This document shows, one piece after another, positions 25,198 through 56,958 of a stretch of DNA of 64,000 nucleotides (position 1 is the first letter of the stretch; each line of letters starts with the position of its first letter). The DNA comes from an uncultured Bacteroidia bacterium (GTDB lineage: Bacteria; Bacteroidota; Bacteroidia; Bacteroidales; Prolixibacteraceae). The translations under genes were made by a program, and so were the position numbers. Where the stretch lies: assembly GCA_903918045.1 (NCBI GenBank), contig CAIXCY010000230.1, forward strand, positions 62,001 through 126,000, written 5' to 3'. The notes below the pieces were generated by a model. The model had not been told where the DNA came from and ran no database searches. It worked only from the letters and a program-made list of their open reading frames with translations.

Positions 25198-27465
25198 TTA
25201 CTTAATAATTCCCTGATATCTGGCCATCCAGTAAGGCCAGAGCCAGAAGACCGGTTCCCTGACCATACGAAGATTTCCTTGTTTTGCGGCCCAGGGATTT
25301 TTATCCCATCGTACAGTAGCCCGGATACTGGCAGGTGGAAGCTCCGACACCTGAACCTCTTCGAGGATCGGGCTTCTAACGATCTGAACATCTTCACGAA
25401 GCGTGTGATCAACAGGCCAGTCCATCAGGTCGAGGGGAGTATCACGAAGGAATTCAATTGTCTGAGGCACATTCACATTTTTACCCGTTGCATAGGCATA
25501 CATCAGATTATTGATGAGGTTTTCACCCGCAGGCTGATTGGCCATCCAAGCTTCAAGTAATTGTTCGTAAAAAGCTTTCAGTTTAGGATCTGTCTCACAT
25601 TTCACAAGGATAGGGAAAAGATACCCTTCGAGTGTGCGGTCGAAATAGATTTGCCATGCCGGATTCTTCTGATTCAGATGAGACACATTTTCGAGGTAGC
25701 CCTCGGTGTCGATCAGGCGGCGATACTCCTTTTCGTATTTTTCATCTCCGGTAAGATGTTTTGCCAATTTAAGATAGGCCAATAGTTCAAACGAGTTTAT
25801 ACTTCGCTCGGAGGCCCAGTCGGGATCGTGGTTGATTTGTTCAGGTGACCAGATCGCCCAGTGGGTTGGCAATCCATCCACATCAACCAGATTGTATTTG
25901 GTTTCAATCAGGTGGTCGATGATCTTTTTTACATGATCACGGACAAGCGACTTCTCCTCTTGGTTTGCAGCAAGTTCATAATAAAAGAAATAGCTCATCA
26001 TATGACCGTCCATCTCATCAGTACTGGTATCGCCTTTCCATAGCCATTTTCCGTCTTTCGATTTTCTCCATCTGATTTCAACTGGTTTAAACCGGGGGTC
26101 CTTAACCAGCTCGTCGGCTACCTGCTGCGGGGTATAGGTTTGATTTGGGTCATTCACACTTGGCCAATCAAGAGGAACTATTGAGCGGGCAAAGAAGCCT
26201 TCCGAACCCGTTACAGTCTGTAAATATTTAAGGAAATCAAAAGCTTTACGTGCCTTGATTCTGGCATCTTCGTCTTTCGTAACGGCATATCTGAAGCTCT
26301 CCATCGCGAGGTATCCACCGGTGTACTCGCCATCATTATCATCATCGGAGTTGTGCCACGAAGCGGTATCCCCGGGAGTATCCAGTTTCAGAAAACCGCA
26401 GGTCCACGGGTCACGAATATGCCTGTTCATCAACTGGCCATAAAAATTGTTTTTTTTATCCTCCAGGGTCATCATCGTCCGTTTGATTTCACTCACCCCA
26501 TGTGCTGTACCAAGCCAGGCATTCCCTTGAATATCGAAGGCAATATCCAGGACTTTATTGTCAGTCAGCCAACGCTGGCTAAAGCGCAATGAGTGAGTGC
26601 CATTCGCAGCAAACCGCACGACACCCATATTCGTTCCTACCCACATCAACCCATCGGGAGAGAGCCGTATACAATTTACATGAGTTGAGGGAATCCCCTC
26701 ATTTGGAGTGAGGCTTTTAATCAGGTGATCGCCGCTCCGGATCGAAACACCCCCCATTCCTCCTGCCCATAAATCACCCCTGGAATCAAAGGCGATTGCC
26801 TTTAGGTAACAACTAATCAGCTCGTCAGTATTTTGAAATAAGGTAGACCTTCCACCCTGACAACGGTATAGTCCAACATCGGTTCCTACCCACAAGAATC
26901 CTTTACTATCGATCGCGGCATCACGAACTGTACGGGCAATCGGATAATTTAAAAACTCCCAGCCATCTGCTTTTGAATGCCAGATACCGTTCGGACCCAG
27001 TGCATAATTTCCTCCGCCATCATTACAAATAATTGAAATTGGAGGTTTTACCCCCTCTTCCTTATGTAGTTGATTTTGGGAATACCGGTAGATTCCATTC
27101 CAGGTTCCCATCACAACGGCTCCGTCAGGATTTACAACTACCGAATAGGCCGGTCCGCGCCCTGGTCCGGTAATAATTGGTTCCCAGCTCCTGCTTTCAG
27201 CCCCCTTTCTGAAAATTCCCGAGGCCGTGGCAATCCAAACATTAGAAGCTTTATCCAGGACAATACTCCTTACTTCATTATCCCCCTTATTGCCACTTAT
27301 TTGAAAGCCATCGTGAATTTCCTGAACGAAGGCGGTATCTGGATAGGACGCAATCTCTTGCTTTGAGATTGCCTTCCGGGGTTGTTCCTTGCATGAATAA
27401 AAATTCACTGCCAACAGACAACTAAAAATCAGAGAAAACTGTCGGATTAAATTATAACTCCTCAT
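25198..27465 (-). CDS. Propeller/toroid lipoprotein of unknown function, copy 1
   Basis: This 755-residue lipoprotein (lipobox near Cys25, YSC) has two parts. Residues 60-325 contain about seven repeats resembling two-component-regulator propeller blades (GNxWLGTxxGV). Residues 335-755 look like an (alpha/alpha) toroid. No kinase or DNA-binding domain follows the propeller. A shared core with the copy at 54826 is RSKDGKWLWKGDTSTDEMDGH (residues 468-488) plus ARSIVPLDWP and DNDGEYTGGY. The conserved Asp/Glu/His could be catalytic. I cannot assign a known family or reaction. It stands between two GH78 genes, which suggests glycan binding or hydrolysis. The C-terminal half is where a search would be most informative. 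Confidence 0.75.
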   Translation of the reverse strand: MRSYNLIRQFSLIFSCLLAVNFYSCKEQPRKAISKQEIASYPDTAFVQEIHDGFQISGNKGDNEVRSIVLDKASNVWIATASGIFRKGAESRSWEPIITGPGRGPAYSVVVNPDGAVVMGTWNGIYRYSQNQLHKEEGVKPPISIICNDGGGNYALGPNGIWHSKADGWEFLNYPIARTVRDAAIDSKGFLWVGTDVGLYRCQGGRSTLFQNTDELISCYLKAIAFDSRGDLWAGGMGGVSIRSGDHLIKSLTPNEGIPSTHVNCIRLSPDGLMWVGTNMGVVRFAANGTHSLRFSQRWLTDNKVLDIAFDIQGNAWLGTAHGVSEIKRTMMTLEDKKNNFYGQLMNRHIRDPWTCGFLKLDTPGDTASWHNSDDDNDGEYTGGYLAMESFRYAVTKDEDARIKARKAFDFLKYLQTVTGSEGFFARSIVPLDWPSVNDPNQTYTPQQVADELVKDPRFKPVEIRWRKSKDGKWLWKGDTSTDEMDGHMMSYFFYYELAANQEEKSLVRDHVKKIIDHLIETKYNLVDVDGLPTHWAIWSPEQINHDPDWASERSINSFELLAYLKLAKHLTGDEKYEKEYRRLIDTEGYLENVSHLNQKNPAWQIYFDRTLEGYLFPILVKCETDPKLKAFYEQLLEAWMANQPAGENLINNLMYAYATGKNVNVPQTIEFLRDTPLDLMDWPVDHTLREDVQIVRSPILEEVQVSELPPASIRATVRWDKNPWAAKQGNLRMVREPVFWLWPYWMARYQGIIK

Positions 27466-27605
27466 AAATTATGGATTTAGCAAATGTGAATAATGGAAAC
27501 AATAAGCTCACTGATCAGATTCTCACTTAATGATTGATTTGCAAATTCTGTTTGTTGTCTAGTTGCTCTGATAAATCGTTCACGTAAGTTAATAGAAATG
27601 CAGTC

Positions 27606-28214
27606 TTAAATTGAATGGTGATCGCTCCATTTGCAAGGTCCCAGATCAAAATCTGAAAACACAGCCTCAAAGCTTGATATTAATGGGCTGCAGGCATAAA
27701 CGCCGACTATTGCTTCAGAAATTGGATTGTGCATATGGAAAATACGCATCTGATGCCAGACTTTGCCTTGCCAAGAGTTTTCCAAACAAAAATCGTGACC
27801 TCTACGGCTTAGTCGATACCACATCGTATGAATCACTGACGAAATATCTGTTGTTGCCCAATCTGAATATCCCAGATTAGTTACCACTGATCCCAAACGC
27901 GAATATTCACTATTTTCATACTCAACAGATCCTTTTACCCAGTTTTCACTATCCTGAAAGAGTATGACTCCACATTGATCATACTGATTTACAGCTTTAA
28001 AGAATGCCTTTACGGTAAAGGTAAAATCACCCTCCATTGAGTTAACAAAAGCATGCCCATTGTCATTCTGAAAACCGTAATAGGTGCGCTGCCAGAAATC
28101 GGTTTCCGGATCGGTAATGATTGTCAGGCTGTCATTTTGCAAAGTAAATTCCGCCGGAGGATTAATCCAGTAAAATTTGGATAAATCAATTTTATCACTC
28201 TTCGTGTGATCCAT
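27606..28214 (-). CDS. DUF1349 concanavalin-like protein
   Basis: This 202-residue protein has the DUF1349 pattern: WINPPAEFTLQNDSLTIITDPETDFWQRTYYGF, then GDFTFTVKAFFKAVNQYDQCGVILFQDSENWVKGSVEYEN and a late AVGVYACSP. The family has a concanavalin A-like lectin/glucanase fold and is annotated as a 'regulation of enolase' protein, with no proven enzymatic role. No signal peptide is seen, so it is probably cytoplasmic, unlike its operon neighbours. It lies between the propeller/toroid gene and a GH92 gene. Confidence 0.85.
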   Translation of the reverse strand: MDHTKSDKIDLSKFYWINPPAEFTLQNDSLTIITDPETDFWQRTYYGFQNDNGHAFVNSMEGDFTFTVKAFFKAVNQYDQCGVILFQDSENWVKGSVEYENSEYSRLGSVVTNLGYSDWATTDISSVIHTMWYRLSRRGHDFCLENSWQGKVWHQMRIFHMHNPISEAIVGVYACSPLISSFEAVFSDFDLGPCKWSDHHSI

Positions 28215-28236
28215 TTTTTCTTATTTGAACTTAAAT

Positions 28237-28310
28237 TACATATCGTACCTACGGCACTTTTAGGCCTTCAATCAACCGGTTTCTACCCATATCTGGCCCC
28301 TACGAGGCCT
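28237..28310. repeat. Interspersed palindromic-type repeat in the DUF1349-GH92 spacer
   Basis: The spacer carries CGTACCTACGGCAC and TTTCTACCCATAT (28280-28292), followed by GGCCCCTACGAGGCC. The 13-base core recurs, inverted or diverged, at 20237-20248 and 20312-20324. Nothing else is seen in the gap 28215-28349. Confidence 0.45.
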
Positions 28311-28349
28311 GTTCTAATCAGCAAAAATTGATTTTCTTTTTAGTTAATT

Positions 28350-30656
28350 CTAATTAGCGGCACAACCCATTTCAAATTCAAGGCTTCCCCCATTCTGAAT
28401 CTCATCATACGTAATAAATAACCTGTCAATCAGTTGTCCGTTCAGTTTTATCGATCGGATATAAATTTTATCCTTTGAAACGTTCTTTGCCACAACGGTG
28501 AATGTTTTACCGTTCGGAAGATTAAAAATAACTTTCTCAAATTGAGGACTCCCAAAATAGTACCTTCCGTCCACCGGATTCACCGGATACATTCCAATTG
28601 CACTAAAAACATACCAGGCGGACATTTGCCCACAGTCTTCATTTCCGCAAAGTCCTGCCGGTGAATTCTTATATAACGCATTTACAATCTTATTTGTATA
28701 CAACTGTGTTTTACCCGGCTTATTCACAAAGTTGAATAAGTAAGCTGAATAATGATCCGGTTCATTTCCCTGAGAATACTGACCGATCATTCCGGTCACA
28801 TCCGCAACATCCTCACCGAGCAATTCGGAGGTCTGGGTGAATAAACTATCGAGCATCATTTCGAAACTTCGCTTTCCTCCCATTAAATTGATTAATCCGG
28901 GCACATCGTGCGGGGCAAAAAAAGAGTATTGCCAGGTATTCCCCTCCACGCAATGGGGATTTCCGTATTCTGCAAACCGGGGTTGAAAAGGTGCATACCA
29001 ACTTCCATCGCTGTTTCTCCCACGCATTAAATGATATGCAGGATCATATAGATTTTTGTAATAAAGTGAACGATCCATGTATTTCCGATAATCCTTATCC
29101 TTTCCGAGCTGTTTGGCGATCTGTGCGATACACCAGTCATCGTAGGCATATTCGAGTGTTTTTGAAACCGTGCCGGTTTTCTCCTTGTCAGTTGGGACAA
29201 AATGAAATTGTCTGTAATAACCCAGGCCCTTACGATCGGTTTCCGAAGCATCAACAAGCGCCTTGAAGATCTCTTCCCTGTTGAAATTTCCAACGTTCTT
29301 AATCAAAGCATCTGCCATCAGCACAGCAGCATGATATCCGATCATTGATCCCCCTTCATTTCCTGAGATTTCCCAATACGGGATTTCGCCCGTCTGACGG
29401 TATTTTGCAATCATTGAATGGATTATGTCAACTTCAACTTTAGGTTGCATCAGTAATAACAACGGGTTTTCGGCCCGGAAAGTATCCCAGAGTGACAATA
29501 AAGTGTATTGCGTATAGCCCTGAGCTTTATCGGGGGCCTGATTGAAATTTTTATAGAAGCCATCGACGTCCGAAAACCGGTAAGGGGCAAGAAAACTGTG
29601 ATATAACGCCGTATAAAAAATGGTTCTTTTTGTTGAATCAGTGGTCGTTACCTTTATTTTAGACAACTCCCGGTTCCATTTTTCGCGGTTTGCCTGATGA
29701 AACTGATCGAAATCCCAGCCAAAGCGATCGGCTGTCTTCAGATTGGCTAATGCTCCCTCTTCACTGACAGAGGAGATGGCGACTTTCATCAGAATTTCGC
29801 TCTTTTCTTTCCCCTCAAATGAAAAAACTGCAGCTATATTTTCCCCCGTGGCAACCTGCTTTCCGTCGGTTGAATCTGTTCTATAATAGCTGTATTCTGT
29901 AATCTTACGTGAAAATTGCATGGCAAAATAAACCCGTTGAACACTGGCTTTACCCGATGAAAACCGGTATCCCGTAACCATTTCGGGCGAGCGGTACCGA
30001 ACAAGTGCTTTGGTGGTTCGGTCACTGTTTATAAAACCAAGGTTTAAAACAATATTTTGCAGGTCAGAGGGTCTCTTAAACCGGTATCGGTGCATCGCCG
30101 CAAGTTCTCCGGTACTCAGTTCCACATCGATGTCATCATCCTTCAGATTGACGGAATAATATCCCGGAGATCCCTTTTCTGTTTTATGCGAGAATTTAGA
30201 GCTGTATTTGAGTAGAAAATGTTTATCGAATGGCCCAGGATGGCCGTCACGATTTGGGAAACCCGTCGGATTGAGACCGTTTTGGGATATAATTTCGGTT
30301 ATTGTTGAATCACTTTGAACAAAATATTTTGTGTCAATTGGTTTGGTTGTTGGCATTACTGAGATGTCACAATAATCGGCAACACCTGTACCGCTAAGAT
30401 GAGTATGGGAAAATCCGACGATAATACTGTCGGGATAATGGTATCCGGCAGCATATTGCCATCCTTGTCCCCCGTTGTCGGGGCTAAGTTGAATCATCCC
30501 AAAAGGGTAGGCAGCTCCAGGAAACATATTCCCAAATCCGTTTTTCATATCACCCCCTGTACCAATAAACGGATTCACATAACCGGCATAATCCTCTTTT
30601 GGGACTCCGGTCCGGCATGCAGACATCAGAAGTATAAATATAGCTGCAGCTCGCAT
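28350..30656 (-). CDS. GH92 alpha-mannosidase lipoprotein
   Basis: This 768-residue exported family 92 exo-alpha-mannosidase is a lipoprotein: FILLMSAC gives a lipobox cysteine near residue 14. It starts with the canonical VNPFIGTGGDMKNGFGNMFPGAAYPFGM. The catalytic acid is expected in GNEP (630-633, Glu632) and the base in CGNEDCGQMSAW (residues 670-681). GFSHTHLSGTG near residue 87 is also conserved. Compared with the GH92 at 17150, this copy keeps the GTGG start and the classical MSAW run, so it is closer to characterised mannosidases. Its start lies three bases after the stop of the upstream GH78, so the two are surely co-transcribed. Confidence 0.95.
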   Translation of the reverse strand: MRAAAIFILLMSACRTGVPKEDYAGYVNPFIGTGGDMKNGFGNMFPGAAYPFGMIQLSPDNGGQGWQYAAGYHYPDSIIVGFSHTHLSGTGVADYCDISVMPTTKPIDTKYFVQSDSTITEIISQNGLNPTGFPNRDGHPGPFDKHFLLKYSSKFSHKTEKGSPGYYSVNLKDDDIDVELSTGELAAMHRYRFKRPSDLQNIVLNLGFINSDRTTKALVRYRSPEMVTGYRFSSGKASVQRVYFAMQFSRKITEYSYYRTDSTDGKQVATGENIAAVFSFEGKEKSEILMKVAISSVSEEGALANLKTADRFGWDFDQFHQANREKWNRELSKIKVTTTDSTKRTIFYTALYHSFLAPYRFSDVDGFYKNFNQAPDKAQGYTQYTLLSLWDTFRAENPLLLLMQPKVEVDIIHSMIAKYRQTGEIPYWEISGNEGGSMIGYHAAVLMADALIKNVGNFNREEIFKALVDASETDRKGLGYYRQFHFVPTDKEKTGTVSKTLEYAYDDWCIAQIAKQLGKDKDYRKYMDRSLYYKNLYDPAYHLMRGRNSDGSWYAPFQPRFAEYGNPHCVEGNTWQYSFFAPHDVPGLINLMGGKRSFEMMLDSLFTQTSELLGEDVADVTGMIGQYSQGNEPDHYSAYLFNFVNKPGKTQLYTNKIVNALYKNSPAGLCGNEDCGQMSAWYVFSAIGMYPVNPVDGRYYFGSPQFEKVIFNLPNGKTFTVVAKNVSKDKIYIRSIKLNGQLIDRLFITYDEIQNGGSLEFEMGCAAN

Positions 30657-30659
30657 ATC

Positions 30660-33398
30660 TTAATTCTTTCTTGTTATAAATGAATAATTTCCGGAATGCA
30701 CCTTTAAAACATGGGCTCCATCTTTAAAGCCTAAATCCTCAACGCCTATTGCCTTTCCCAATGGAAGTCCACCCTCGCTGATCAGATCTTTTTCTCCCAC
30801 CGGAAGGTAGACAAAGGCGGAGGTATTATACGGAACCTCCACGTTCAGGTGATATTGCCCATTTACCCTTTGCCATGACGACAAAATCGTTCCACGTATT
30901 GTTTCGATCCTTCCTTGCGCCGATCCGAGACTGTCGAGTTGCAAAGGTTTCACGATGAAGGAGGCGAATGCAGGAATCTTTTCATCCTGCTGAATACCGG
31001 CTACATATTTATAAAACCAGGCATCGATACTTCCCATCATTACATGGTTTTTCGATTGCTTCAATGTCCAAAACTCACACACAGTGGTATATTTTCGCAT
31101 CATATCGTTCCAGCTTGGAGCGCTTTTCTGATTGATAATATTCCATGCCACATCGCCACGTCCCATCCGGGCCAGTGCCTCGGGCATATATTTGGTGCCT
31201 AGAACACCTGTCGTGAGATGGGTATTATTCTTCACCGCAATATCATTCACAAGGTTATCCAGCACCCTGTTTTCCAGATTCTTAGGAACAATTCCGAGAA
31301 ACAGCGGAAATGAATTTGCCATCTGGCTTCCATCATTATAATCGGACGTTTCCGTATTCAGATACGTTTTATTGTATTTCTCCTTTATTCGATTTTGCAG
31401 CTCTGTATAGTATTGCTGATCTATCTTATTGCCCAATATTCGTGATACATCTGACATGATCCCGGCATTCAGAAAATAAAAGGCCGTCGGAACTGATGAG
31501 GGCTCACCCTCCTTCCACCCTTTGACCATACTTCCCCAGTCACCGATCCATCCTTTGGGGAGGATCAGATCGTTAGACTGCTTGTCCAGAAAATCCATAT
31601 ACCGTTTCATCGCCGGATAATGGTGCTGAAGAATCCGCACATCACCATAGGCAGTATAAAACTGCCAGAGCATTGTCAGATAGGTACTGCTCCATTCAAT
31701 TCCCTCATCAAAAATGTAAGGTCGTGGTGAAATAATGGGAATATCACCGGTTTTAAAATCCTGGTTATCTTTAATCCCTTCGAACCAGTTTTCGTAAAAC
31801 AGCGCCATATCGAAATTAAACATCGCCTCTTCGGCAGTGACCTGAGCATCACCAAACCAACCCAACCGTTCATCGCGTTGCGGGCAATCCATCGGATACC
31901 CGATCATATTGCTTTTCTGCGACCAGACTGTTGCCTTGTGAATCTTATTAACCAGTGAATTGTCACATTCAAAATCACCGGTTTGAGTATTGTCAGAATA
32001 AACAGCACGCCCTTCAACTGTAATAATCTTCGCAGTACCATCCAGAGCCGTAACTTCGGCATATTTAAATCCAAACCAGGTAAAATGTGGTTCATAAATC
32101 TCGATTCCCTCTCCCTTTAAGATATATTCGGCAGTAGCTTTGGCAAATTCGTTACTCGTAATATTAATTGATCCATCCTCATTGATATCTTCCGAAAACC
32201 GAATTTTCAGGTGTGTATTTTTTGTCCCTTTAACAGATATCCGAATCCATCCGGCAAAATTCTGACCGAAATCATACACTTTTGCTCCCTTTTGATTAGT
32301 TTTAACATCCTGCGGTTTAAATCGTTCATGGACCTTAATGGGCGGCATACGATGGGAGCGTAATCGTCCATCCGGTTTGTTAAAAACCGTAGCCGGTTTC
32401 CAGGCAGTCGCGTCATAACCGGCAGTTGTCCATCCCTGATGATCCAGATTTGCATCATAAATCTCACCATCATAAACGCAGTTATAGGTTATCGGCCCCG
32501 GAGACCATAGCCAATTATTATCTGTTACAATTAGTTGTGATGTGCCGTCTGTATATCTTATCTCGATTTGAGCAATTGCCTTTTTTGAACCAAACCACTG
32601 CATCCGGTAGTCATTCCACCATTTCTTATAGGGATTATACCATCCGTTTCCCAGATGGATTCCGAAAGAATTAACACCAGTTGTTAAAAGGGAGGTCACA
32701 TCGTAGGTATCGTATAGAATTTGTTTATGATAGGGGGTCTTTGCCGGGGCAAGAACCCGATCGCCAACACGGCTTCCGTTGATATAGAATTCATAGAATC
32801 CAACACCGGTGATAAATGCCTTAGCGGATCTGATTTTTTTTGCCAGCTGGACTTCACGTCTCAGCAATAATGAATTTCCATCATGAACAATGGAATCACC
32901 CCCTAAATATTGTTCCTTTGTATCCTTATAAAAACCCTGCGGTGGTAAAGGTTCGGATGGAGATCCTTTCCCTATCCATTTTGCTTTCCAGTCATCCGTT
33001 GATAAGATTGCAGTTTCGAATTTTGCAGCCTGACTTTCATGATATTTTGAATTATTATCCCAAATGATCACCTTCCAATAGTAGGTCGCATTTGATTTTA
33101 AGTTATCTCCAGCATATTCGTGCTGAATGGTTTCTCCCGACATAATTTTCCCCGAATCCCATAAATCACCCTGTTTAAGATTCATTTTTTTTGGAGTTGA
33201 AGCTACGAGGATTCGGTAGGCGATTTGGGTCTGATTTCGTTCCTGGGAGGCTATAATCCATGAAAACCGGGGGTGCATATCATCAATACTGATCGCATTC
33301 TCAGCATAATCTACAACCATTTTCTTGAACGAAAAATGGGGATTTGATCCGGTTGTGAAATTAATGGAAAGAATGAATTGTAAGAGATAAAATAACAT
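30660..33398 (-). CDS. GH78 alpha-L-rhamnosidase, secreted
   Basis: The start was set at the ATG at 33398 (912 residues), because it gives a signal peptide (MLFYLLQFILSINFTTGSNP); the frame is open 50 codons further upstream without leader character. The mature enzyme is a family 78 inverting alpha-L-rhamnosidase: N-terminal beta domains (MHPRFSWIIASQERNQTQIAYRI), a jelly-roll part with FITGVGFYEFYINGSRVGD, then the (alpha/alpha)6 barrel with DCPQRDERLGWFGDAQ at residues 504-519, the canonical form of the acid-motif region. It lacks the tail domains of the copy at 21724. It is first in the minus-strand operon. No clear promoter was found upstream. Confidence 0.94.
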   Translation of the reverse strand: MLFYLLQFILSINFTTGSNPHFSFKKMVVDYAENAISIDDMHPRFSWIIASQERNQTQIAYRILVASTPKKMNLKQGDLWDSGKIMSGETIQHEYAGDNLKSNATYYWKVIIWDNNSKYHESQAAKFETAILSTDDWKAKWIGKGSPSEPLPPQGFYKDTKEQYLGGDSIVHDGNSLLLRREVQLAKKIRSAKAFITGVGFYEFYINGSRVGDRVLAPAKTPYHKQILYDTYDVTSLLTTGVNSFGIHLGNGWYNPYKKWWNDYRMQWFGSKKAIAQIEIRYTDGTSQLIVTDNNWLWSPGPITYNCVYDGEIYDANLDHQGWTTAGYDATAWKPATVFNKPDGRLRSHRMPPIKVHERFKPQDVKTNQKGAKVYDFGQNFAGWIRISVKGTKNTHLKIRFSEDINEDGSINITSNEFAKATAEYILKGEGIEIYEPHFTWFGFKYAEVTALDGTAKIITVEGRAVYSDNTQTGDFECDNSLVNKIHKATVWSQKSNMIGYPMDCPQRDERLGWFGDAQVTAEEAMFNFDMALFYENWFEGIKDNQDFKTGDIPIISPRPYIFDEGIEWSSTYLTMLWQFYTAYGDVRILQHHYPAMKRYMDFLDKQSNDLILPKGWIGDWGSMVKGWKEGEPSSVPTAFYFLNAGIMSDVSRILGNKIDQQYYTELQNRIKEKYNKTYLNTETSDYNDGSQMANSFPLFLGIVPKNLENRVLDNLVNDIAVKNNTHLTTGVLGTKYMPEALARMGRGDVAWNIINQKSAPSWNDMMRKYTTVCEFWTLKQSKNHVMMGSIDAWFYKYVAGIQQDEKIPAFASFIVKPLQLDSLGSAQGRIETIRGTILSSWQRVNGQYHLNVEVPYNTSAFVYLPVGEKDLISEGGLPLGKAIGVEDLGFKDGAHVLKVHSGNYSFITRKN

Positions 33399-33644
33399 TA
33401 CTCTTCCTTTTCTGCCCGGAATAAAGCCAGATATGAATTTATCCAAAAAACAGGAATAAAAAGACGAAAAAATTGGACGAAACAGGGGGTACCTACACAA
33501 AGGAAGGTGTTTTTTATCGAATAAGGTGCTCCATTGATTATCTGCCATTCAGAGTGTTTTTTCCAGCTAATCAAAGAAACACCAGAAAATCGTGTTTTAT
33601 GTGTCAATTTTTGCCCGATTCCTATACTATATTAACTGCCGGGG

Positions 33645-33724
33645 GATGGGAAGAAGGGGTGAAGAGGAGATGGGGCGAAGAGGAGATGGGGCGAGGGGGA
33701 GATGGGGCGAAGAGGAGAGGGGGA
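33645..33724. repeat. G-rich 16-bp tandem repeat
   Basis: Four units of 16 bases start at 33661, 33677, 33693 and 33709. The first two are identical, GAAGAGGAGATGGGGC; the others are 2-4 mismatches away. A weaker unit precedes them at 33645. Nearly all bases on this strand are purines and several runs of four or five G occur. Between the GH78 start and this repeat (33399-33644) I see nothing definite. Confidence 0.85.
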
Positions 33725-33802
33725 GAAGACGTGTCTAGTCCTGAAATAGGTTTACAGAAAAAGTATATTAAAATCAGGAGGAGTCAAGATTCGCCTGTGA
33801 CT

Positions 33803-33870
33803 CGTCGTAGTGTCGTGTAGTCGTATTGTCGTGTAGACGTGCAGTCGTATTGTCGTGTAGTCGAGCAGTC
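33803..33870. repeat. 24-bp-spaced direct repeat next to the AraC gene
   Basis: AGTCGTATTGTCGTGTAG occurs at 33819-33836 and exactly again at 33843-33860. Partial GTCGTGTAGTCG units occur before and after. The repeats end within 11 bases of the AraC-family stop codon at 33871. Confidence 0.8.
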
Positions 33871-34722: not shown

Positions 34723-34756
34723 CTCGTTCCGTTTTAATTTTTTTAACTTGAAAAGA

Positions 34757-34764
34757 CAAATATA
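34757..34764 (-). promoter_or_regulatory. -7 box for the AraC-family gene
   Basis: On the minus strand these bases read TATATTTG, an exact TAnnTTTG, about 35 bases before the regulator's ATG. No TTTG was found at the -33 distance. Confidence 0.4.
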
Positions 34765-34938
34765 AAAGAATAATATCAGATAACAGTTAAAATACAATGC
34801 AAATAGAACAAGATTATAGAAGTAAAAAAGAAGTTGATTCCATTAATTTGTACTAAGGATCAGGATAATTTAAGAACTTTCTTTTACGACTTTTAAAATA
34901 GCCGCTACTTCTTTAAAATATTTATATACAATACTACT

Positions 34939-35847: not shown

Positions 35848-36029
35848 TACAACCAAGGGTTTTTGAGCTTATGAAACAAGCAATGAGTGACAATCCGTGC
35901 ATAAGATTGTTTCATGGCGAGTTCCATGTAGCCGTTAAAAATAAATTGTAATCACATGAAATAACCCTTTGGAAATGCAAATCCGGGATTAAATGTCATT
36001 AAACTGGCAGCTTTGTCCCGGGAATACAG

Positions 36030-36082
36030 ATGCTTCAATATGCCTGGGCAGGTTATGTCTTTGCATATCGAAGCATTTTTTT
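36030..36082 (+). terminator. Hairpin with T-run between the aldolase and the first propeller gene
   Basis: ATGCTTC...ATATGC (36030-36043) pairs with GCATAT...GAAGCAT (36063-36076), with one internal mismatch, and is followed by a run of seven T. It lies 30 bases before the next gene, so it ends the aldolase transcript or attenuates the downstream genes. Confidence 0.7.
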
Positions 36083-36112: not shown

Positions 36113-37207
36113 ATGCGAACAAACACCCTTGTTATCCTAATTGTAGCTTTACGCTTTTCAACAGCCTGCTTTGCGGATAATCCCTTTAAAGGGAGTAATG
36201 CAATAATCGCTTCCGAGTTTATTTACAAAAAAGAGGATGTCTCATTTCCAAGCTGTCATGCCTCAACAATTGCAGAGACTTCCGATGGTTTGATTGCTGC
36301 ATGGTTCGGCGGGAAAGAGGAGCGCGATCCGGGAGTTGGGATATGGTTAAGTCGCTATCAGCTTGGCAAATGGACCACTCCTGTTGAAGTTGCCAATGGC
36401 GTTCAAACTCAAGGGAATCGGTTTCCAACCTGGAATCCGGTCCTCTATAATACTGGAAAAGAGATCAAATTATTTTATAAGGTCGGCCCCAATTGCTCCG
36501 ATTGGTGGGGTGAATATATAACGTCTTCAAACAACGGACAGAATTGGACGAAACCGGTGAGGTTACCAGAGGGGATATGGGGTCCGATAAAAAACAAACC
36601 GGTTTTGCTAAGTAACGGTGAATTGCTGTGTCCCTCAAGTACAGAATATAATGGCTGGCAAGCCCATATCGAAACATCACCGGATATGGGAGCCACCTGG
36701 AAACGGACCGGTGACCTGAACGATGGCAAAGAGATTGCTGTCATTCAGCCAACTGTTCTTGTACATCCGGATGGTAAGATTCAAATACTCTGCCGCAGTA
36801 AAAGTAAGGTAATTGTAACGTCATGGTCCTCCGACCAGGGAAAGAGCTGGAGCAAGTTCGAATTAACATCCTTGCCGAATCCAAATTCAGGAATAGATGC
36901 CGTAACTTTGAAAAACGGATTAAACATTCTGATTTATAACCACTTTAATGCCAAATTCGACTGGAGATCCCGAAGTACTTTGAATATTGCATTATCTCCC
37001 GACGGGATTACCTGGAATGGTGCAGTGCTACTCGAAAACGACCCCGATCTAAAAGCGGAATATTCATACCCAGCTGTCATTCAAACCAAAGATGGATTGG
37101 TTCACATTACCTATACCTGGAACCGAAAATTAATCAAACATGTGGTTGTAGACCCGTCAAAACTTAAAACCAAACCTATTTTAAATGGCCTCTGGCCTGA
37201 GGAATAA
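36113..37207 (+). CDS. Secreted sialidase-like beta-propeller (BNR), copy 1
   Basis: This 364-residue exported protein starts with a signal peptide ending near ACFA. Four Asp-box-like segments (SSNNGQNW, SPDMGATW, SSDQGKSW and SPDGITW) mark a six-bladed BNR propeller. The N-terminal SCHASTIAETSDGLIAAWFGG matches widespread BNR proteins annotated as sialidase-like. The RIP motif and other hallmarks of GH33 sialidases are not visible, so a true sialidase is unlikely. The substrate is unknown; related propellers act on varied sugars, including rhamnose-glucuronate units. The second propeller follows at 37233. Confidence 0.85.
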   Translation: MRTNTLVILIVALRFSTACFADNPFKGSNAIIASEFIYKKEDVSFPSCHASTIAETSDGLIAAWFGGKEERDPGVGIWLSRYQLGKWTTPVEVANGVQTQGNRFPTWNPVLYNTGKEIKLFYKVGPNCSDWWGEYITSSNNGQNWTKPVRLPEGIWGPIKNKPVLLSNGELLCPSSTEYNGWQAHIETSPDMGATWKRTGDLNDGKEIAVIQPTVLVHPDGKIQILCRSKSKVIVTSWSSDQGKSWSKFELTSLPNPNSGIDAVTLKNGLNILIYNHFNAKFDWRSRSTLNIALSPDGITWNGAVLLENDPDLKAEYSYPAVIQTKDGLVHITYTWNRKLIKHVVVDPSKLKTKPILNGLWPEE

Positions 37208-37232
37208 AACAAATCAACTAATAGATAAACAA

Positions 37233-38429
37233 ATGGTTAAGACATTAATTTTTTTTATTGGTTTGGGGTTTATAGTTGCCCTGAATGGCAGTTCACAGAC
37301 CCGAAATTCCAAACATGCGATTGTGAGTGAAGAGCTTATTTTTCCAGCGCAGCAGGAACACACCCATGGCAGCAGTATCGTAATGCTTCCCGATGGAGAC
37401 CTGTTGGCTGCCTGGTTTCAGGGGAGCGGTGAGCGAAATGCAGATGATGTCAGGATTATGGGGGCACGACTAAAAAAGGGGGCAAAAAGCTGGACAACAC
37501 CCTTCTTGATGGCTGACACCAAAGGGATTCCCGATTGTAACCCCGTCCTGTTTCTGAACAGAAATGGGAAATTGTTCCTGTTCTGGGTTGCAGTCCAGGC
37601 CAATAAATGGGAAGATGCCATTTTAAGGTTCCGTACCTCAACGAATTATCAAGGCGATGAGGCCCCGGTTTGGGAATGGCAGGATAATATTCTGCTGAAG
37701 CCGAACGATAATTTTGTCATTGAAGTTGAGAAACGATTTAAGGAATTGCCAAAGAATGAGGCAGGCTGGGCTTCTTTTGCCCCCTCCTATGAAACGATGA
37801 TTAAGGAGGCAAGCAAAGATCTTCTTAAACGGAGTATTGGCTGGATGACAAGGATCCATCCAATCACACTCGAAAGTGGAAGAATTCTCCTTCCACTCTA
37901 TTCTGACGGTTTAAATTTCTCTATGGTTGCTATCTCTGATGATAATGGTGAAACCTGGAGGCCAAGCCTTCCGATTGTAGGACGCGGACCAATACAACCC
38001 GCACTTGCAGTGAAGAAAAACGGAGATATCGTTGCCTATATGCGCGACAGTGGTGACGCTCCGACCCGGGTTCAGAATAGTATATCAAAAGATAATGGTG
38101 AGTCGTGGAGTACTGCCTTTAAAACAGAAATCCTCAATGAGGCAAGTGTCGAAATCTGTGTCTTAAAAGACGGGAAGTGGGCCTTTGTCGGAAATGACAG
38201 TAATGACGGACGATACCGGTTTTCAATTTACCTTTCTGATGACGAAGGAGCAACCTGGAAATGGAAAGAACTCATCGAATTTGACCCGACCAAAAAAGGG
38301 AGCTTCTCATATCCGTGCCTGATTCAAACAAAAGATGGGCTGTTGAATATCTCCTATTCTTACTCTTTAGGTTCACACCAGGAATCGATTAAACATGTTG
38401 TGATCGATCCGGCTAATATCACAAGATAA
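37233..38429 (+). CDS. Secreted sialidase-like beta-propeller (BNR), copy 2
   Basis: The start at 37233 gives 398 residues with a signal-like stretch (KTLIFFIGLGFIVALNGSSQ). The upstream 16 in-frame codons overlap the end of the previous gene and were not used. Asp-box segments SDDNGETW, SKDNGESW and SDDEGATW indicate the same propeller fold as copy 1, with EHTHGSSIVMLPDGDLLAAWFQG as the matching N-terminal strand. RPSLPIVGRGPIQPALAV and YMRDSGDAPTRVQNS are extra segments relative to copy 1, so the pair has diverged. It is separated by 25 bases from copy 1 and is surely co-transcribed. No catalytic residue can be assigned. Confidence 0.85.
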   Translation: MVKTLIFFIGLGFIVALNGSSQTRNSKHAIVSEELIFPAQQEHTHGSSIVMLPDGDLLAAWFQGSGERNADDVRIMGARLKKGAKSWTTPFLMADTKGIPDCNPVLFLNRNGKLFLFWVAVQANKWEDAILRFRTSTNYQGDEAPVWEWQDNILLKPNDNFVIEVEKRFKELPKNEAGWASFAPSYETMIKEASKDLLKRSIGWMTRIHPITLESGRILLPLYSDGLNFSMVAISDDNGETWRPSLPIVGRGPIQPALAVKKNGDIVAYMRDSGDAPTRVQNSISKDNGESWSTAFKTEILNEASVEICVLKDGKWAFVGNDSNDGRYRFSIYLSDDEGATWKWKELIEFDPTKKGSFSYPCLIQTKDGLLNISYSYSLGSHQESIKHVVIDPANITR

Positions 38430-38492
38430 ACAGCAACATTAAATTTATTCATCAACCGCAATAGAATAACAGAAACAAAAAAAACTTTGAAA

Positions 38493-39584
38493 ATGAAAAA
38501 TCTCAGACCTCAATTCACTGGAAAAACTTCGCCTGTCAATTTCTTTAGCAATAAGCTAAATTCGATGATTATCATATTTATAGCAATTGGAATAAGCCTT
38601 TCCCCTGCGAATGTATCTGCAAAAAAACCGAATCTAAAGGAAGATCAAAAACCTGCAGTTTCGGCTGACGGTGTACAGACAATTCAGGAAAACAAAACGT
38701 CTGCCGTTAAACTCGGGTTTCCAAAGGGGAAGGTAGTACTGCTTCTTCATATTGATGATGCGGGGATGTGCCCTGAGGCAAATACAGCAACCCAGAATTA
38801 TCTCGGAAAGGGTTACCTTCATTCTGCAGCGGTGATGATGCCTTGTCCTAATGCAGTGGAAATGATCGAATGGGCGAAGAGTCACCGTTCAGAGGACATC
38901 GGGCTGCATCTTACCCTGACCAGTGAATGGTCGAAATATCGCTGGGGCTCGGTTACAGATCCGTCAAAGGTGCCCGGCTTGATTGATCCTGATGGAAAAT
39001 TATGGCATGAAGTTCCCGATGTTGCCATGCATGCCTCCAATGCAGAAGTAGAAACAGAGATTCGTGCCCAGATCGAAAAATCGATTGCCCTTGGTTACCG
39101 TCCAAGCCATATCGATACCCACATGGGAACTCTCTATGGGACTCCTGGATATGTGAAGGCATTTCTCAAAGTTGCCGAAGATTACCATATCCCTGCAAAT
39201 GTCATAGATCTCACCTATCCTGAAGTTGCTGAAAAGTTCAAGCAGATGGGTTATCCTGTTAATGATGAAGTGATCAAGCTTGTCGCAAATTACAAGATGC
39301 CACGACTGGATAATTTCACAAGTGTCGGAGAAGGGAAAACCTACGATGAGAAACGTGCAAACTTTTTCAAGCTGGTTGAATCCTTAAAAGAGGGTTTGAC
39401 TGAAATCATTTTTCACCCTTCCGTACCAACTGAAAATATGAAAACAATTACCGGAACCTGGCAGCAACGCGGCTGGGAGGCAGAACTGTTTTCAGATCCC
39501 GAAGTCATACACTTCTTTAAGGACAAGGGAATTATTATTACGAACTGGAAAGAGATTATGAACAGGTTTGAAAATAAAAAATAA
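38493..39584 (+). CDS. Exported ChbG/YdjC-family carbohydrate deacetylase, copy 1
   Basis: The ATG at 38493 gives 363 residues. A hydrophobic segment near residues 25-42 is a signal or anchor. The catalytic core starts at about residue 80 with LLLHIDDAGMC (metal Asp). IGLHLTLTSEW and the metal-binding HIDTHMG follow, the hallmark of the ChbG/YdjC/HpnK family that removes N- or O-acetyl groups from sugars such as chitooligosaccharides. The family is usually cytoplasmic; this copy has a leader, so it may act in the periplasm. The next gene is a close paralog (alignable over the whole core). The upstream segment (residues 45-75) is not recognised. Confidence 0.85.
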   Translation: MKNLRPQFTGKTSPVNFFSNKLNSMIIIFIAIGISLSPANVSAKKPNLKEDQKPAVSADGVQTIQENKTSAVKLGFPKGKVVLLLHIDDAGMCPEANTATQNYLGKGYLHSAAVMMPCPNAVEMIEWAKSHRSEDIGLHLTLTSEWSKYRWGSVTDPSKVPGLIDPDGKLWHEVPDVAMHASNAEVETEIRAQIEKSIALGYRPSHIDTHMGTLYGTPGYVKAFLKVAEDYHIPANVIDLTYPEVAEKFKQMGYPVNDEVIKLVANYKMPRLDNFTSVGEGKTYDEKRANFFKLVESLKEGLTEIIFHPSVPTENMKTITGTWQQRGWEAELFSDPEVIHFFKDKGIIITNWKEIMNRFENKK

Positions 39585-43227: not shown

Positions 43228-43244
43228 CTTAATTTGCAGGAAAC

Positions 43245-47293: not shown

Positions 47294-47351
47294 ATGAAAT
47301 TTGGAACGCTGTGCCATACTCTGTGAAACTCTGTGGTAAAAAAATAACTAT

Positions 47352-49589: not shown

Positions 49590-49600
49590 AACCGAAAAAG

Positions 49601-50839: not shown

Positions 50840-50900
50840 CGGGTTTCGACCAACAGTTCTCTAAAACTATGTTCATTAATGCAAACGATAATTAAACAAT

Positions 50901-52226: not shown

Positions 52227-52244
52227 ATATTAAACAAGACGACC

Positions 52245-53618
52245 ATGGCTAAGGAACAAATTTCAAGACGGAATTTTCTCGGGAAATCGGCTGCCGGAGT
52301 TGCAGCCACTACAATTACGTTGAACGGCTCGTCAATGAGTGCTGCCTCGTATAACCGGATAATCGGGGCAAACGACCGGCTAAATATTGCCTTTTTAGGA
52401 TGCGGCTCACGCAGTAAGGGGCATCAGAATATGGTCAAAATGTCGTTGAAGGAGAAAAATCTTGGTGTGGTTGCGGTGTGCGATTTATGGACGAGGAACA
52501 AGGAAACTACTGCCGCCAGGTGCAGGGAGCTGTTTGGTGTCGATGTTCAGCAGTTTAAATATTTCGATCAGATGCTTGAGATGCCCGATCTGGATGCCGT
52601 AATGATTGGGACTCCCGATTTTCAGCATGCAAAGATTCTTGCGGCAGTGGTAAATGCAGGGAAGGATTGTTATTGCGAGAAGCCTATGGCTGAGACACTC
52701 GAGGATGCAAAACTGGCCAGAGCAGCAGTCGTTGGTTCGAAACAGGTGGTGCAAATGGGTTCACAATGGGTAAGTGAACCGGTTCAGCGCAAGATACGCG
52801 AGATTGTCCGATCGGGGAAACTTGGACAAATCACAAAAATTGAACAGGTATGGAACGATAATGGCCCACGCTGGCATAATCCCTCGAATCCGAATGTTGC
52901 AGCTATCCGGGAAGAGGATGTAGACTGGAAACGGTGGCTAATGGGTAAACCTGAAGTGCCGTTTGATCCCTGGAAATATTGCGAATTCAGGGTTTTTCGC
53001 GATTATTCCGGAGGAATTACCTCGCAGTGGATGTCTCATGCTATTGGACTGGTCCATTTTTACACCGACACTGCAATCCCCGATACGATGGTTTCGAACG
53101 GGGGCATCTTCGGATGGCCCGATATTCGTGAGAATCCCGATACTTTTCAGGCGCTGGCAACCTATAACGACTCTAAATTATTGTATTCCTATTCATCAAG
53201 TTATGCGAATAAATTTGGAGATTACAGCCTGATCAGGGGGAAGGAAGGATCTCTGTTTGCCCATGGTGGTGAAGGTTCTCCCCGCTGGTTTTACATTCCT
53301 GAACATCAGCAGCTTACCGGTGGATTTGACTTTTATGAAGGGCTTAAAGAGTTGCTAAGGAAGGGGAAGGCCGAAATGATAACGACTGAGGAGTACGGTA
53401 TGAAGCTGCCACCGGCAAACCTGAGTGATGACAGCAAATTCCATATGGATAATTGGGTCGAATGTATGCGCAGCAGGAACAAAGAGCCTAACGGCCACAT
53501 CAATACCGGATTCTGGCATTCTGTTGGATCCATTATGGCAACCCGTAGTTACAGGGAAGGAAAAAAAATGTACTGGGACCGGACTCATGAAGAGATTGTT
53601 GATCACCCGTTGTTTTGA
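52245..53618 (+). CDS. Gfo/Idh/MocA oxidoreductase with Tat-type leader, third copy
   Basis: This 457-residue protein starts MAKEQISRRNFLGKS, a clear twin-arginine leader with a following hydrophobic run. The Rossmann part has LNIAFLGCGSRSKGHQN, IGTPDFQHAKI and the EKP sequence CYCEKPMAETL. The substrate half has WKRWLMGKPEVPFDPWKYCEFRVFRDYSGGITSQWMSHAIGL. It is more like the classical form than the copies at 41869 and 43245. Its stop is 122 bases before the LacI-type gene. The gap 53619-53740 has no gene and no clear terminator. Likely role: oxidation of a sugar in the periplasm, by analogy. Confidence 0.88.
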   Translation: MAKEQISRRNFLGKSAAGVAATTITLNGSSMSAASYNRIIGANDRLNIAFLGCGSRSKGHQNMVKMSLKEKNLGVVAVCDLWTRNKETTAARCRELFGVDVQQFKYFDQMLEMPDLDAVMIGTPDFQHAKILAAVVNAGKDCYCEKPMAETLEDAKLARAAVVGSKQVVQMGSQWVSEPVQRKIREIVRSGKLGQITKIEQVWNDNGPRWHNPSNPNVAAIREEDVDWKRWLMGKPEVPFDPWKYCEFRVFRDYSGGITSQWMSHAIGLVHFYTDTAIPDTMVSNGGIFGWPDIRENPDTFQALATYNDSKLLYSYSSSYANKFGDYSLIRGKEGSLFAHGGEGSPRWFYIPEHQQLTGGFDFYEGLKELLRKGKAEMITTEEYGMKLPPANLSDDSKFHMDNWVECMRSRNKEPNGHINTGFWHSVGSIMATRSYREGKKMYWDRTHEEIVDHPLF

Positions 53619-53740
53619 AGCTTGTTTTGTCTAATTTTGCCAACTCTTAAATTAACCAGGATGAATCTGGTGATTCTGTCCGTGGGATAAGTTATTATAG
53701 TACAAATAGTAAGAAATGCCATCTGAAAACCGAAACCAAA

Positions 53741-54769
53741 ATGAAAAAAACTTCTCTCAGTGATATTGCTAAACACCTGGGTGTCTCCAAGACCCTGGTC
53801 TCTTTTGTTTTAAACGGAAAAGGGAAGGAATTTCGAATCAGCGAGGATATTTGCAAAAAGGTTTTGGAAGTTGCCAAAGAGTTAAATTACCAACCCAACC
53901 GAATCGCCCAGGGTCTGCGAACCGGGAGAACAAATACAATAGGATTAATCATTGCAGACATTGCAAACCCCTTCTTCGGTATCCTTGGACGTGAAATCGA
54001 GCAGGAGGCTGCCCGGTTTGGATACCGGGTCATCTTCTGCAGCTCGGATGAAAACCCCGAAAAATCGGGGCAACAGATTGCAATGTTGCAGCAAAGCCAG
54101 GTAGATGGCTATATCATCTCTCCTCCCAAAAACAGCGAAGATCAAATAAAGGCACTGGCAAAGGGGCAAGTCCCTCTAGTGTTGATTGACCGGTATTTTC
54201 CTGAGATAGAATGTAACCATATCGCAGTTGATAATTTTGATGCAGCTTATCGTGCGACAAATCATCTGATTGCAAAAGGGCGAAAAAAGATTGCTAATAT
54301 TACAGTTAATCTCGATCTGGTAAATATGCGGGACCGAACCGAAGGATATAAGCAGGCACTTCGCGATGCGGGAATGAATGTTGACGAAAACCTTATCAAA
54401 GTGCTTCCATTTTCACATGAAAATAAGGATGTCGCCAGGGCCATAAAAGAGCTTGTGGGTAAGACCTCGCAAAACAGAGCAGATGCAATCCTTTTTTCAA
54501 CCAGTAAGTTAGGGATTAACGGAATTGAATCGATCGCTGCTTTAGGCTTAAAGATACCTGATGATGTTGCCATCGTTAGCTTTGATAACCCTGATGCCTA
54601 TAAAATTTGCGTGAGCCCGGTAACTGTTGTTAACCAACCGTTGAAGGAGATCGGAAAAACAGCGGTGCAGATCCTGCTCAATGAAATCAAACACCCTGAT
54701 GCCCCAGCTAAAATTCAGAAGATAACCCTGAAAACAGATTTGATTATCCGCAAATCGTGCGGATCATAA
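53741..54769 (+). CDS. LacI-family transcriptional regulator
   Basis: This 342-residue repressor-type regulator has an N-terminal helix-turn-helix (SLSDIAKHLGVSKTLVSFVLNGKGK), hinge helix region (ELNYQPNRIAQGLRTGRTNTIGLIIADI) and periplasmic-binding-protein-like sugar domain (NPFFGILGREIEQEAARFG...LIDRYFPEIECNHIAVDN...IVSFDNPDAYKICVSPVTVVNQP). The ligand is likely a sugar or sugar phosphate. The palindrome at 57215-57228, upstream of the ROK operon, is a candidate operator. It may control that operon, the gene at 54826, or both. Confidence 0.93.
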   Translation: MKKTSLSDIAKHLGVSKTLVSFVLNGKGKEFRISEDICKKVLEVAKELNYQPNRIAQGLRTGRTNTIGLIIADIANPFFGILGREIEQEAARFGYRVIFCSSDENPEKSGQQIAMLQQSQVDGYIISPPKNSEDQIKALAKGQVPLVLIDRYFPEIECNHIAVDNFDAAYRATNHLIAKGRKKIANITVNLDLVNMRDRTEGYKQALRDAGMNVDENLIKVLPFSHENKDVARAIKELVGKTSQNRADAILFSTSKLGINGIESIAALGLKIPDDVAIVSFDNPDAYKICVSPVTVVNQPLKEIGKTAVQILLNEIKHPDAPAKIQKITLKTDLIIRKSCGS

Positions 54770-54825
54770 AAGTGATCTTTTCTGAGATTGGAGTTTATAA
54801 ACTTTATAACACATTACCTGAAACT

Positions 54826-56958
54826 TTATTTTATTAGCTTATGATAGAGCGCCATATAATAGGGTAACAGGAAAAAGGTCCCCTCCTGTTCAGAATTTCC
54901 TCCCCCTACTTCCTGGGTTAATAATGCAAAACCATCCCTGTCCTGCCTAACATGCCCACGCTCTTCAACAGGTACGGCATACCCGCCTACACGCCAGCCC
55001 ATTGTCGGTTTTTGTCCCGGCGCAGGATCAAAAATCACATCCAACCGGTGGGTGTTATCCATTTGATAACCGATAAGATCAAGTGGGATTCGACGGAGTG
55101 TCTCAAGAATTCCTTCACCAAGGGATGGCACTTTCTTTAATTCACCGGTGATCTGGGATACAAAACTGCCCGCTTCAGGGAAAATAGCAGGTGAGTTAAA
55201 ATAACCTTCCTCCGCTTTTTTTGCGAAATTAGTTGCCAGGGCGGCATAGATCGCATCCCAGAATGCATTTTGCTGTTTACTGATTTGCAGCCATGAATTC
55301 TGGAGTGAGGTGCGGTACATAATCAGAAGTTCAGGATTCTCCTCGTAATTCATCAATCCATACATACTCATCAGACAAAGATTATTATCCCACGGGACTA
55401 CATTCTCAGGAGGGAAGAACTCCTTGCCATGCATTGCATTGATATGATAATTATACTTGTTGCGAAGCATCGCAGCCACTTGGTCGTATTTTGGATCTCC
55501 GGTAACGTGTTTGGCAACATTGAGAAAGGACAACATCATCATCGAATTAAGTCCTCGCTGATCCCAACCCCAGACCGAATTACAATATTCGGGTGAAAAA
55601 TTACCCCACCGCGTGGGCTTCCCATCATGATCACTTAAATTAAAACCGTGTCGGATCAGGTGATCTGTGATAGCTGCAACAACTTCGCGTACCGGTTTTC
55701 TTTCTTCTTCGGTTTTAGCAACAAGGTCAAAATAGATCCCATAAAAGAAATAGTGACCAGCCAGTTCGTCGGAGCTGGTATCGCACTTCCAAAGATGTTT
55801 CCCGTCCTTGCTCCTCACAAAGCGAGGATTAATATCCTTCCAGAACGGATCATCTTTCTGCATAGCAATGTTCATCCGATGGCTGTATTGTGGATCTTTC
55901 AAAGGTTCCGGCCAGTCAATGGGAACAATAACCCTTGCCGGAAACCCAGGTTCATGGGTTATGTCCACCAACCATTTGCATGCGTTGAAACTTCGTGTAG
56001 CCAGCTTTTTTGCCACTTCATTGCCTGTAACTGCATATCGGAAAGCCTGTGACGCTCCGTACATCGAGGTATACATCCCGTCATTGTCGGAGATTCCAGG
56101 TGTCGACGAACTAATATCGAAAGGCACTTTTAGATTGTTAGGCGCTATAAAGCCCAACCGTTGATTCCGTGCTTCAGTTTGCCGGGTAAAATGAGCCGCC
56201 TTTTCATCGAGTGACATTTGTTTGCGTATGATTTGTCCAACACCCTTATCTGTTGCAAACCAGGCTGTTCCATTGTTGTCGGTGGCGATATCATTGATCC
56301 GGTCATTCGGCAGCCATCTCAGGCTAAAACGATAATAGAAATTACCATTTTCAAACCGTATCGCTCCGGAATCGGTCCCAAACCAGACTATTCCATCGGG
56401 CGCAGCTGCGGCACAGGTAAAATGATTAAATGGCAACCCTTCTTTCCCGGAATAAAGCTTCCACTTTTCTCCGTTTAAACACCCGACTCCCTGCTCAGCG
56501 CCAAACCAAAGTGCTCCATTTGAATCAATTGTTAATGCACCAACTTTGTAAGGGGCCCACTTGTATTTCTCATCCTGTGGAAGGATCTCCTTCCAGCCTC
56601 CCTGTTGAGCTGAATAAAAATATAATCCGTTTTCTGTTCCAACAGCAAATCCATCCATGTATTCCACAGAAGCGAGAACAATTCCTGAATTTTGAGGGAG
56701 CAAAGGAATTATTAAACCTTTTTTAGGGCTCGGTATACCGGTCGGATTCCATCGTTGTCCGTCCCACTTTAAAGCCGAATTTTCACGGATTGCAACAGGG
56801 TCACTGTTTTCAAAAACAATTGAGGTCACCCGCTCGTCGGATAACCCTTGTTTTAAATTATGATGGATGGCCATATCCTGGGTATAGAGTCTGGTTGGTA
56901 CCGGCTGACAGAAAAGAGAGAGTGGGAAAAGGGTGATAAGAAGAAGCAGAAGTTTCAT
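54826..56958 (-). CDS. Propeller/toroid protein of unknown function, copy 2
   Basis: The ATG at 56958 gives 710 residues with a signal peptide (MKLLLLLITLFPLSLFC). The N-terminal 250 residues have propeller-type repeats (GALWFGAEQGV, GIVWFGTDSGA, GTAWFATDKGV), shorter and more diverged than in the copy at 25198. The C-terminal 450 residues match that copy in DNDGMYT, FRYAVTGNE, PARVIVPIDWP and RSKDGKHLWKCDTSSDELAGH (residues 382-402). The shared Asp/Glu/His core is the strongest hint at an active site. No family name can be given. It sits between the LacI regulator and the ROK operon, divergent from the latter. Confidence 0.75.
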   Translation of the reverse strand: MKLLLLLITLFPLSLFCQPVPTRLYTQDMAIHHNLKQGLSDERVTSIVFENSDPVAIRENSALKWDGQRWNPTGIPSPKKGLIIPLLPQNSGIVLASVEYMDGFAVGTENGLYFYSAQQGGWKEILPQDEKYKWAPYKVGALTIDSNGALWFGAEQGVGCLNGEKWKLYSGKEGLPFNHFTCAAAAPDGIVWFGTDSGAIRFENGNFYYRFSLRWLPNDRINDIATDNNGTAWFATDKGVGQIIRKQMSLDEKAAHFTRQTEARNQRLGFIAPNNLKVPFDISSSTPGISDNDGMYTSMYGASQAFRYAVTGNEVAKKLATRSFNACKWLVDITHEPGFPARVIVPIDWPEPLKDPQYSHRMNIAMQKDDPFWKDINPRFVRSKDGKHLWKCDTSSDELAGHYFFYGIYFDLVAKTEEERKPVREVVAAITDHLIRHGFNLSDHDGKPTRWGNFSPEYCNSVWGWDQRGLNSMMMLSFLNVAKHVTGDPKYDQVAAMLRNKYNYHINAMHGKEFFPPENVVPWDNNLCLMSMYGLMNYEENPELLIMYRTSLQNSWLQISKQQNAFWDAIYAALATNFAKKAEEGYFNSPAIFPEAGSFVSQITGELKKVPSLGEGILETLRRIPLDLIGYQMDNTHRLDVIFDPAPGQKPTMGWRVGGYAVPVEERGHVRQDRDGFALLTQEVGGGNSEQEGTFFLLPYYMALYHKLIK

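Follow-up and report, generated by a model that had tools for sequence, protein, structure and literature searches.

Propellers built from Reg_prop blades are found in the hybrid two-component sensors BT4663, BT4673 and BT3049, which combine them with kinase, receiver and DNA-binding domains, and a related propeller stretch occurs in PorZ (NF052228). The (alpha/alpha)6 barrel is the generic fold of several groups of sugar-active proteins: the AGE superfamily (3vw5, 7d5g), GH76, GH88/GH105, GH127/GH146 and GH9. AGE-family enzymes use two catalytic His residues, and the GH127/GH146 mechanism depends on a metal-bound Cys nucleophile.

Two genes in the 64,000-nucleotide stretch of DNA analysed here (the window) encode proteins that join a propeller of the first kind to a barrel of the second. 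P0001 (25198..27465, minus strand; an ORF call of 755 aa) has a leader that by eye resembles a signal or lipoprotein sequence (about residues 1-30), a Reg_prop-type propeller (residues 45-329; 26479..27333, minus strand) located by Pfam, AlphaFold2 and Foldseek, and an (alpha/alpha)6 toroid (residues 330-755; 25201..26478, minus strand) located by AlphaFold2 and alignments. P0002 (54826..57021, minus strand; 731 aa) likewise carries a Reg_prop propeller and a toroid (residues 269-731; 54829..56217, minus strand, by alignment), and belongs to a different, deep subfamily. The two proteins are 34% identical over 624 aa (E 2e-89). Both ORFs of the initial annotation are real and lie on the minus strand, but the frame of P0002 extends to 57021, and the end given earlier, 56958, is an internal ATG. 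As this ATG opens a stretch beginning MKLLLLLITLFPLSLFC... that looks plausible by eye as a signal peptide, either 57021 or 56958 could be the start.

The propeller expected at the N-terminus was found in both proteins as a Pfam Reg_prop match (E 3e-18 in P0001 and 1.1e-11 in P0002), which is the sole Pfam match of the pair apart from an extra, sub-threshold SGL match in P0002. For P0001 it was also recovered by structure: AlphaFold2, given 58 aligned full-length sequences, modeled the whole protein with a mean pLDDT of 93.7 and a pTM of 0.90, and Foldseek matched its N-terminal half to the periplasmic sensor propellers of BT4663/BT4673 (E about 3e-14). PDB sequence searches matched the N-terminal part to the propellers of 3v9f, 4a2l and 3ott, and phmmer matched it to BT4663, BT4673 and BT3049 at E 7e-20. 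Unlike these sensors, P0001 consists of one propeller followed by the toroid, with no kinase, receiver or DNA-binding domain. The NCBIfam matches of P0001 and P0002 were all far below threshold, and PorZ was chief among them; its propeller stretch matches at E 9e-10, but the scores, 37.6 and 24.8 bits, fall far below the cut-off of 260, and the toroid lies outside the match. Among 58 full-length members, hand-picked from 80 loci with fragments excluded, 57 contain Reg_prop (E 0.01). Kinase, receiver and HTH domains were found neither in P0001 and P0002 nor among the 16 Pfam families listed for these 58 members. The earlier statement that the pair are not hybrid sensors is therefore upheld, and a role as regulators was rejected.

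The C-terminal domain of P0001, modeled alone by AlphaFold2 from 47 sequences (pLDDT 93.3, pTM 0.93), contains twelve main helices forming six hairpins, that is, an (alpha/alpha)6 barrel, in agreement with the toroid proposed before. Foldseek placed a cellobiose 2-epimerase first (E 6e-4, TM 0.51, 10% identity), with further matches to GH76, GH88, GH146 and GH9 barrels. Sugar-active barrels (these four types and the cellobiose/GlcNAc 2-epimerases) make up most of the 50 listed matches; a complement fragment and a phage tail protein are among those that do not fit. Because only one of 387 matches reached E <=0.001, the fold is recognised but the family is not. A viral structure library gave nothing at E <=0.001. 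At the sequence level, the domain is covered by no Pfam or NCBIfam model and by no solved-structure sequence, and a PDB sequence search with the C-terminal part returned unrelated matches only (E 0.096 or worse), as did a search with a 17-sequence profile.

P0001 and P0002 had been described as two paralogs in one island. They do belong to one family, but the source genome has six members (P0001, P0002, one on contig C75, one on C16 and a tandem two on C219), and the pair separated anciently; the count of six was obtained by merging split matches by eye, with 13 of the 21 rows matching just the propeller, in frames 1,081-1,465 aa long. In a quick tree of 62 domain rows, P0001 falls in a group of 39 rows (support 100) that also holds sequences from Planctomycetota, Nitrospirota and others, and P0002 in a separate group of three (support 99) that includes a Bryobacteraceae sequence; three other copies from the source genome lie outside both. 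A recent local duplication was rejected, as the two tree groups are separate and span other phyla.

Among 101 genomes of kin, 27 contained a match to the P0001 C-terminal domain, and the family profile at E 1e-10 detected members in 7 of 395 genomes across the phylum when at most four candidates were scored per genome (the source genome is counted in both). A contig scan yielded at least 591 pattern stretches, at least 561 of them confirmed, with relatives in Bacteroidota, Planctomycetota, Acidobacteriota, Armatimonadota, Nitrospirota and Paenibacillus. The best 80 of these loci, which were retained, are mostly from Bacteroidota, with others from Planctomycetota, Hydrogenedentota, KSB1, Calditrichota, Nitrospiraceae, Chthonomonas, Bryobacteraceae and Paenibacillus. 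At 70 of the 80 the stop-to-stop frame is 720-835 aa and the match begins at residue 308-408; the remaining 10 are shorter, truncated at the edge of a contig, interrupted or double. Members split over several frames (L101, L121, L124 and L141:1890-4016) might be pseudogenes or sequencing errors.

Residue conservation was read from a domain alignment of 131 copies (17 rows of the first alignment plus 114 from the contig scan), which include identical and near-identical rows and related species; two identical pairs occur even among the 62 tree rows. Ten positions are invariant: R351, D378, W476, S481, D483, G531, W536, R690, D692 and Y745. D376, R427, Y590 and D679 are each kept in 130 of 131 copies, followed by D609 (126), H349 (125), E484 (123), K477 (121), H488 (120) and H570 (96). 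The motifs KxDTSxDE..GH and DNDGxYT, noted earlier, are present in both P0001 and P0002. PLDWP/PIDWP is likewise common to the two, but the wider family does not keep it, position 433 being G, D, S, T, E or N, and it was rejected as a core motif. As for the supposed Asp/Glu/His core, the Asp is kept in all 131 copies, but E484 is Gln in eight and H488 is His in only 120. In the P0001 model D378 starts the second helix and D483 the fourth.

The adjacent acids D483-E484 are thus found in 123 copies and D-Q in eight. These eight Q-type copies carry N377S, G379N, K477R, E484Q and H488Q together, and retain D378 and D483; one of them is the C75 copy of the source genome, which has lost D376 as well. 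The 11 copies in which H488 is replaced are these eight plus three that retain E484. The four Q-type copies present in the quick tree form a single group (support 97). Two ORFs of about 1,500 aa (L085:9336-13877 and L089:9301-13752) fuse a canonical toroid to a Q-type toroid.

Across 58 sequences, conservation is higher in the toroid than in the propeller, both in mean top-residue frequency (0.63 vs 0.52) and in columns conserved at >=95% (58 of 426 vs 14 of 285). Charged residues conserved at >=95% in or near the inter-helix loops number 10 in the 256 odd-to-even positions and none in the 54 even-to-odd positions, a one-sided placement that is not significant (Fisher p 0.22) between two regions of different size. 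In the model, this is suggestive of conserved charges favouring the long-loop end of the barrel.

The domain was compared by hhalign, without a positive control, to rough profiles of known toroid families, using two family alignments; some profile rows were multi-domain, and one row of the GH88 profile came from a wrong ORF of 84 aa. With these rough profiles, probabilities were 60 and 62% for AGE (148 columns, 11% identity), 0.4 and 9% for GH88, 0.9 and 3.6% for GH76, and 3.8 and 67% for GH127, and in the two alignments read, D483 stands opposite a gap in the AGE comparison and opposite a Trp in that with GH127. The AGE entries 3vw5 and 7d5g share the (alpha/alpha)6 barrel, with TM 0.43-0.51 among the first six Foldseek matches, but at 10-12% identity. 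The only His columns above 60% in the 131 copies are 349, 488 and 570, none invariant, and PF07221 is unmatched in P0001/P0002 and in sets of 17 and 58 members; on these grounds AGE membership was rejected. GH127/GH146 was rejected as well, as no Cys column exceeds 60% anywhere in the 131 copies; PF07944 gave weak matches only, in one of 17 members (E 0.025) and three of 58 (best E 0.0035). GH88/GH105 (PF07470) and GH76 (PF03663) were unmatched in P0001/P0002 and in the same 17 and 58 members. The neighboring acids D483-E484, where a helix begins, are reminiscent of D136/D137, a pair named in the title of the GH76 entry 6shm. Given these profile results and the absence of invariant His and conserved Cys residues, we did not file the family under AGE, GH88, GH76 or GH127. 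Neither of the outcomes that the initial annotation had named as refuting its reading occurred: Pfam, NCBIfam, PDB sequences, Foldseek and hhalign gave no match that would assign the proteins to a characterised family, and the Asp part of the core persists in all 131 copies.

As described before, P0001 lies in a GH78/GH92 gene run and P0002 beside a LacI regulator. Directly downstream of P0001, after a 66-bp gap, is a gene of the GH78 alpha-L-rhamnosidase family with PA14 (21724..25131, minus strand); upstream on the same strand, after 140 bp, is a DUF1349 protein gene (27606..28214), followed in the run by GH92 (28350..30656, minus strand) and GH78 (30660..33548, minus strand) genes. The island also contains GH38, NagA-like, NagB-like, DHDPS-type, YdjC, DUF4838 and HGSNAT-like genes, as well as two genes for BNR_2, a sialidase-like propeller (36113..38429, plus strand). 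The LacI-type regulator gene (53741..54769, plus strand) is the convergent neighbor of P0002.

Gene order was compared in nine regions from eight relatives. The order GH78-GH92-DUF1349-P0001-GH78 is complete in four (L140, L145, L146 and L147), some of which have an ORF of 182-186 aa between DUF1349 and P0001. It is partial in four others: L139 and L141, which are cut off by the end of the region or contig; L143, with DUF1349-P0001 but no GH78; and L144, with P0001 and GH78 but no GH92. The order S41, LacI, opposite-strand P0002, ROK recurs in L139, L140 and L141 (in L141 with P0002 in two frames), and L147 has ROK-LacI-S41 without P0002.

At distant loci the neighbors include BNR_2, SusC/SusD, GH78, GH92, GH141, PAP-type phosphatases and GFO/IDH dehydrogenases. 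Among the best 80 loci, BNR_2 is the commonest neighbor cluster (33 ORFs in 21 loci, including one BNR_2-YdjC fusion), followed by ECF sigma (20 loci), SusC (16), SusD (14), DUF3748 (12), PfkB (9), GH78 (8), LGT (8) and GH92 (6); the PfkB and LGT counts reflect a shared Dyadobacter gene order. A background control was run for BNR_2 alone among the neighbor families, on 25 of the 80 loci, hand-picked and mostly from isolates. With 166 BNR_2 matches in about 175 Mb of these 25 genomes (rounded sizes, split matches counted repeatedly), about 0.4 of the 25 locus surroundings would contain BNR_2 by chance, and 13 do. As these 13 come from only four genera (Dyadobacter, Larkinella, Emticicia and Cyclobacterium), they amount to fewer independent cases than their number suggests. 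A module of a family member, one or two BNR_2 genes, a second family member and DUF3748 recurs in Dyadobacter/Emticicia (L064, L067, L069, L071, L074, L077, L078, L081, L082, L083 and L087). The adjacent BNR_2 and YdjC genes at 37185-39584 of the window correspond to the single BNR_2-YdjC fusion at L049:216-2297.

The enzyme proposed in the initial annotation fits the fold, the conservation of the toroid and the glycan context, while its activity, substrate and catalytic residues are matters that we infer. Probably, P0001 and P0002 are exported two-domain carbohydrate-active enzymes, the barrel most likely being a glycoside hydrolase and the propeller a binding module. Export would follow from the leader read by eye. 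The barrel would be the catalytic domain, with its active site at the end bearing the long inter-helix loops. D378 and D483 would form the catalytic pair (acid/base or nucleophile), assisted by D376 and, in most members, by E484, and the arginines would hold the substrate. The near-invariant R351, R427 and R690 suggest a sugar that is anionic or rich in hydroxyl groups, although they could be structural instead. The propeller may hold the glycan or position the enzyme, like the sensor proteins that it resembles. P0001, with the two GH78 and two GH92 enzymes of the genome, would target a glycan that contains rhamnose and mannose; for the family at large a common substrate is not indicated, because no single neighbor is universal.

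It is also conceivable, if unlikely, that these are non-catalytic surface proteins for glycan binding or sensing, in which both domains bind and neither cleaves. The propeller is like sensor ectodomains, the conservation and fold would fit a binding protein too, and the Q-type copies with their substitutions, at two loci fused to a canonical copy, also speak for it. However, it is the toroid, with its invariant positions, that is the more conserved half, signaling domains were not found, and P0001 is encoded in a glycosidase gene run.

A polysaccharide lyase or unsaturated-uronyl hydrolase, cleaving beside a uronic acid whose carboxylate is neutralised by arginines, is quite improbable in our estimate. 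The conservation of R351, R690, R427, Y590 and K477 would suit it; GH88 and a toroid titled as a polysaccharide lyase (4q88, 5noa) are among the Foldseek matches, and DHDPS-type aldolase genes occur near five of the best 80 loci (by clustering) as well as in the island. Against this, PF07470 is unmatched, the hhalign probabilities for GH88 are low, and the partners GH78 and GH92 work on neutral sugars. Within an enzymatic role, a hydrolase is more likely than a lyase. An AGE/cellobiose 2-epimerase-type sugar epimerase or isomerase, favoured by the top Foldseek match and the AGE hhalign probabilities, is very improbable, as the catalytic His pair has no counterpart, PF07221 is unmatched and it would be unusual for an epimerase to be exported and carry a propeller.

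Returning to the hydrolase with a binding propeller, a broader picture can be offered tentatively, as close to an even call: a sensor-type propeller may have been co-opted for glycan recognition as a module of an undescribed catalytic domain of the (alpha/alpha)6 type, spread over six or more phyla and often in tandem paralogs, with the remodelled-site subfamily (the Q-type copies) partnering a canonical copy, as in L085 and L089.

Each half and the fold are of known kinds; the C-terminal family has no Pfam or NCBIfam model and no solved relative by sequence. Set against Pfam, NCBIfam and PDB sequences, we judge the toroids to constitute a new family within a fold class already known, for which a CAZy entry may exist. 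Searches of open-licence papers showed nothing on the family, those naming Reg_prop/PF07494 were by title not about it, and passages of PMC11036162 do not mention it either. The at least 561 confirmed stretches, in glycan-degradation loci, have a more conserved half that is blank in Pfam and NCBIfam. The invariant residues offer targets for mutagenesis, and the conserved GH78-GH92 neighborhood narrows the substrate. If enzymatic, the toroid would represent a new catalytic family and would correct the naming of such genes after a regulator-type propeller despite the absence of a signaling domain.

Two further observations concern nearby genes. A protein of about 540 aa beside a family member (L117:3-1622, with an L059 neighbor in the same cluster) has weak GH47/GH88/GH127 matches. 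Seven relatives (G004, G007, G010, G011, G013, G014 and G016) have a gene for an AGE-type epimerase about 3.5-4 kb away from a distant paralog that shares 28-30% identity with the P0001 toroid, and an AGE-type gene is also present on the window's own contig (G000:C230:136134-137252), about 10 kb beyond the window.
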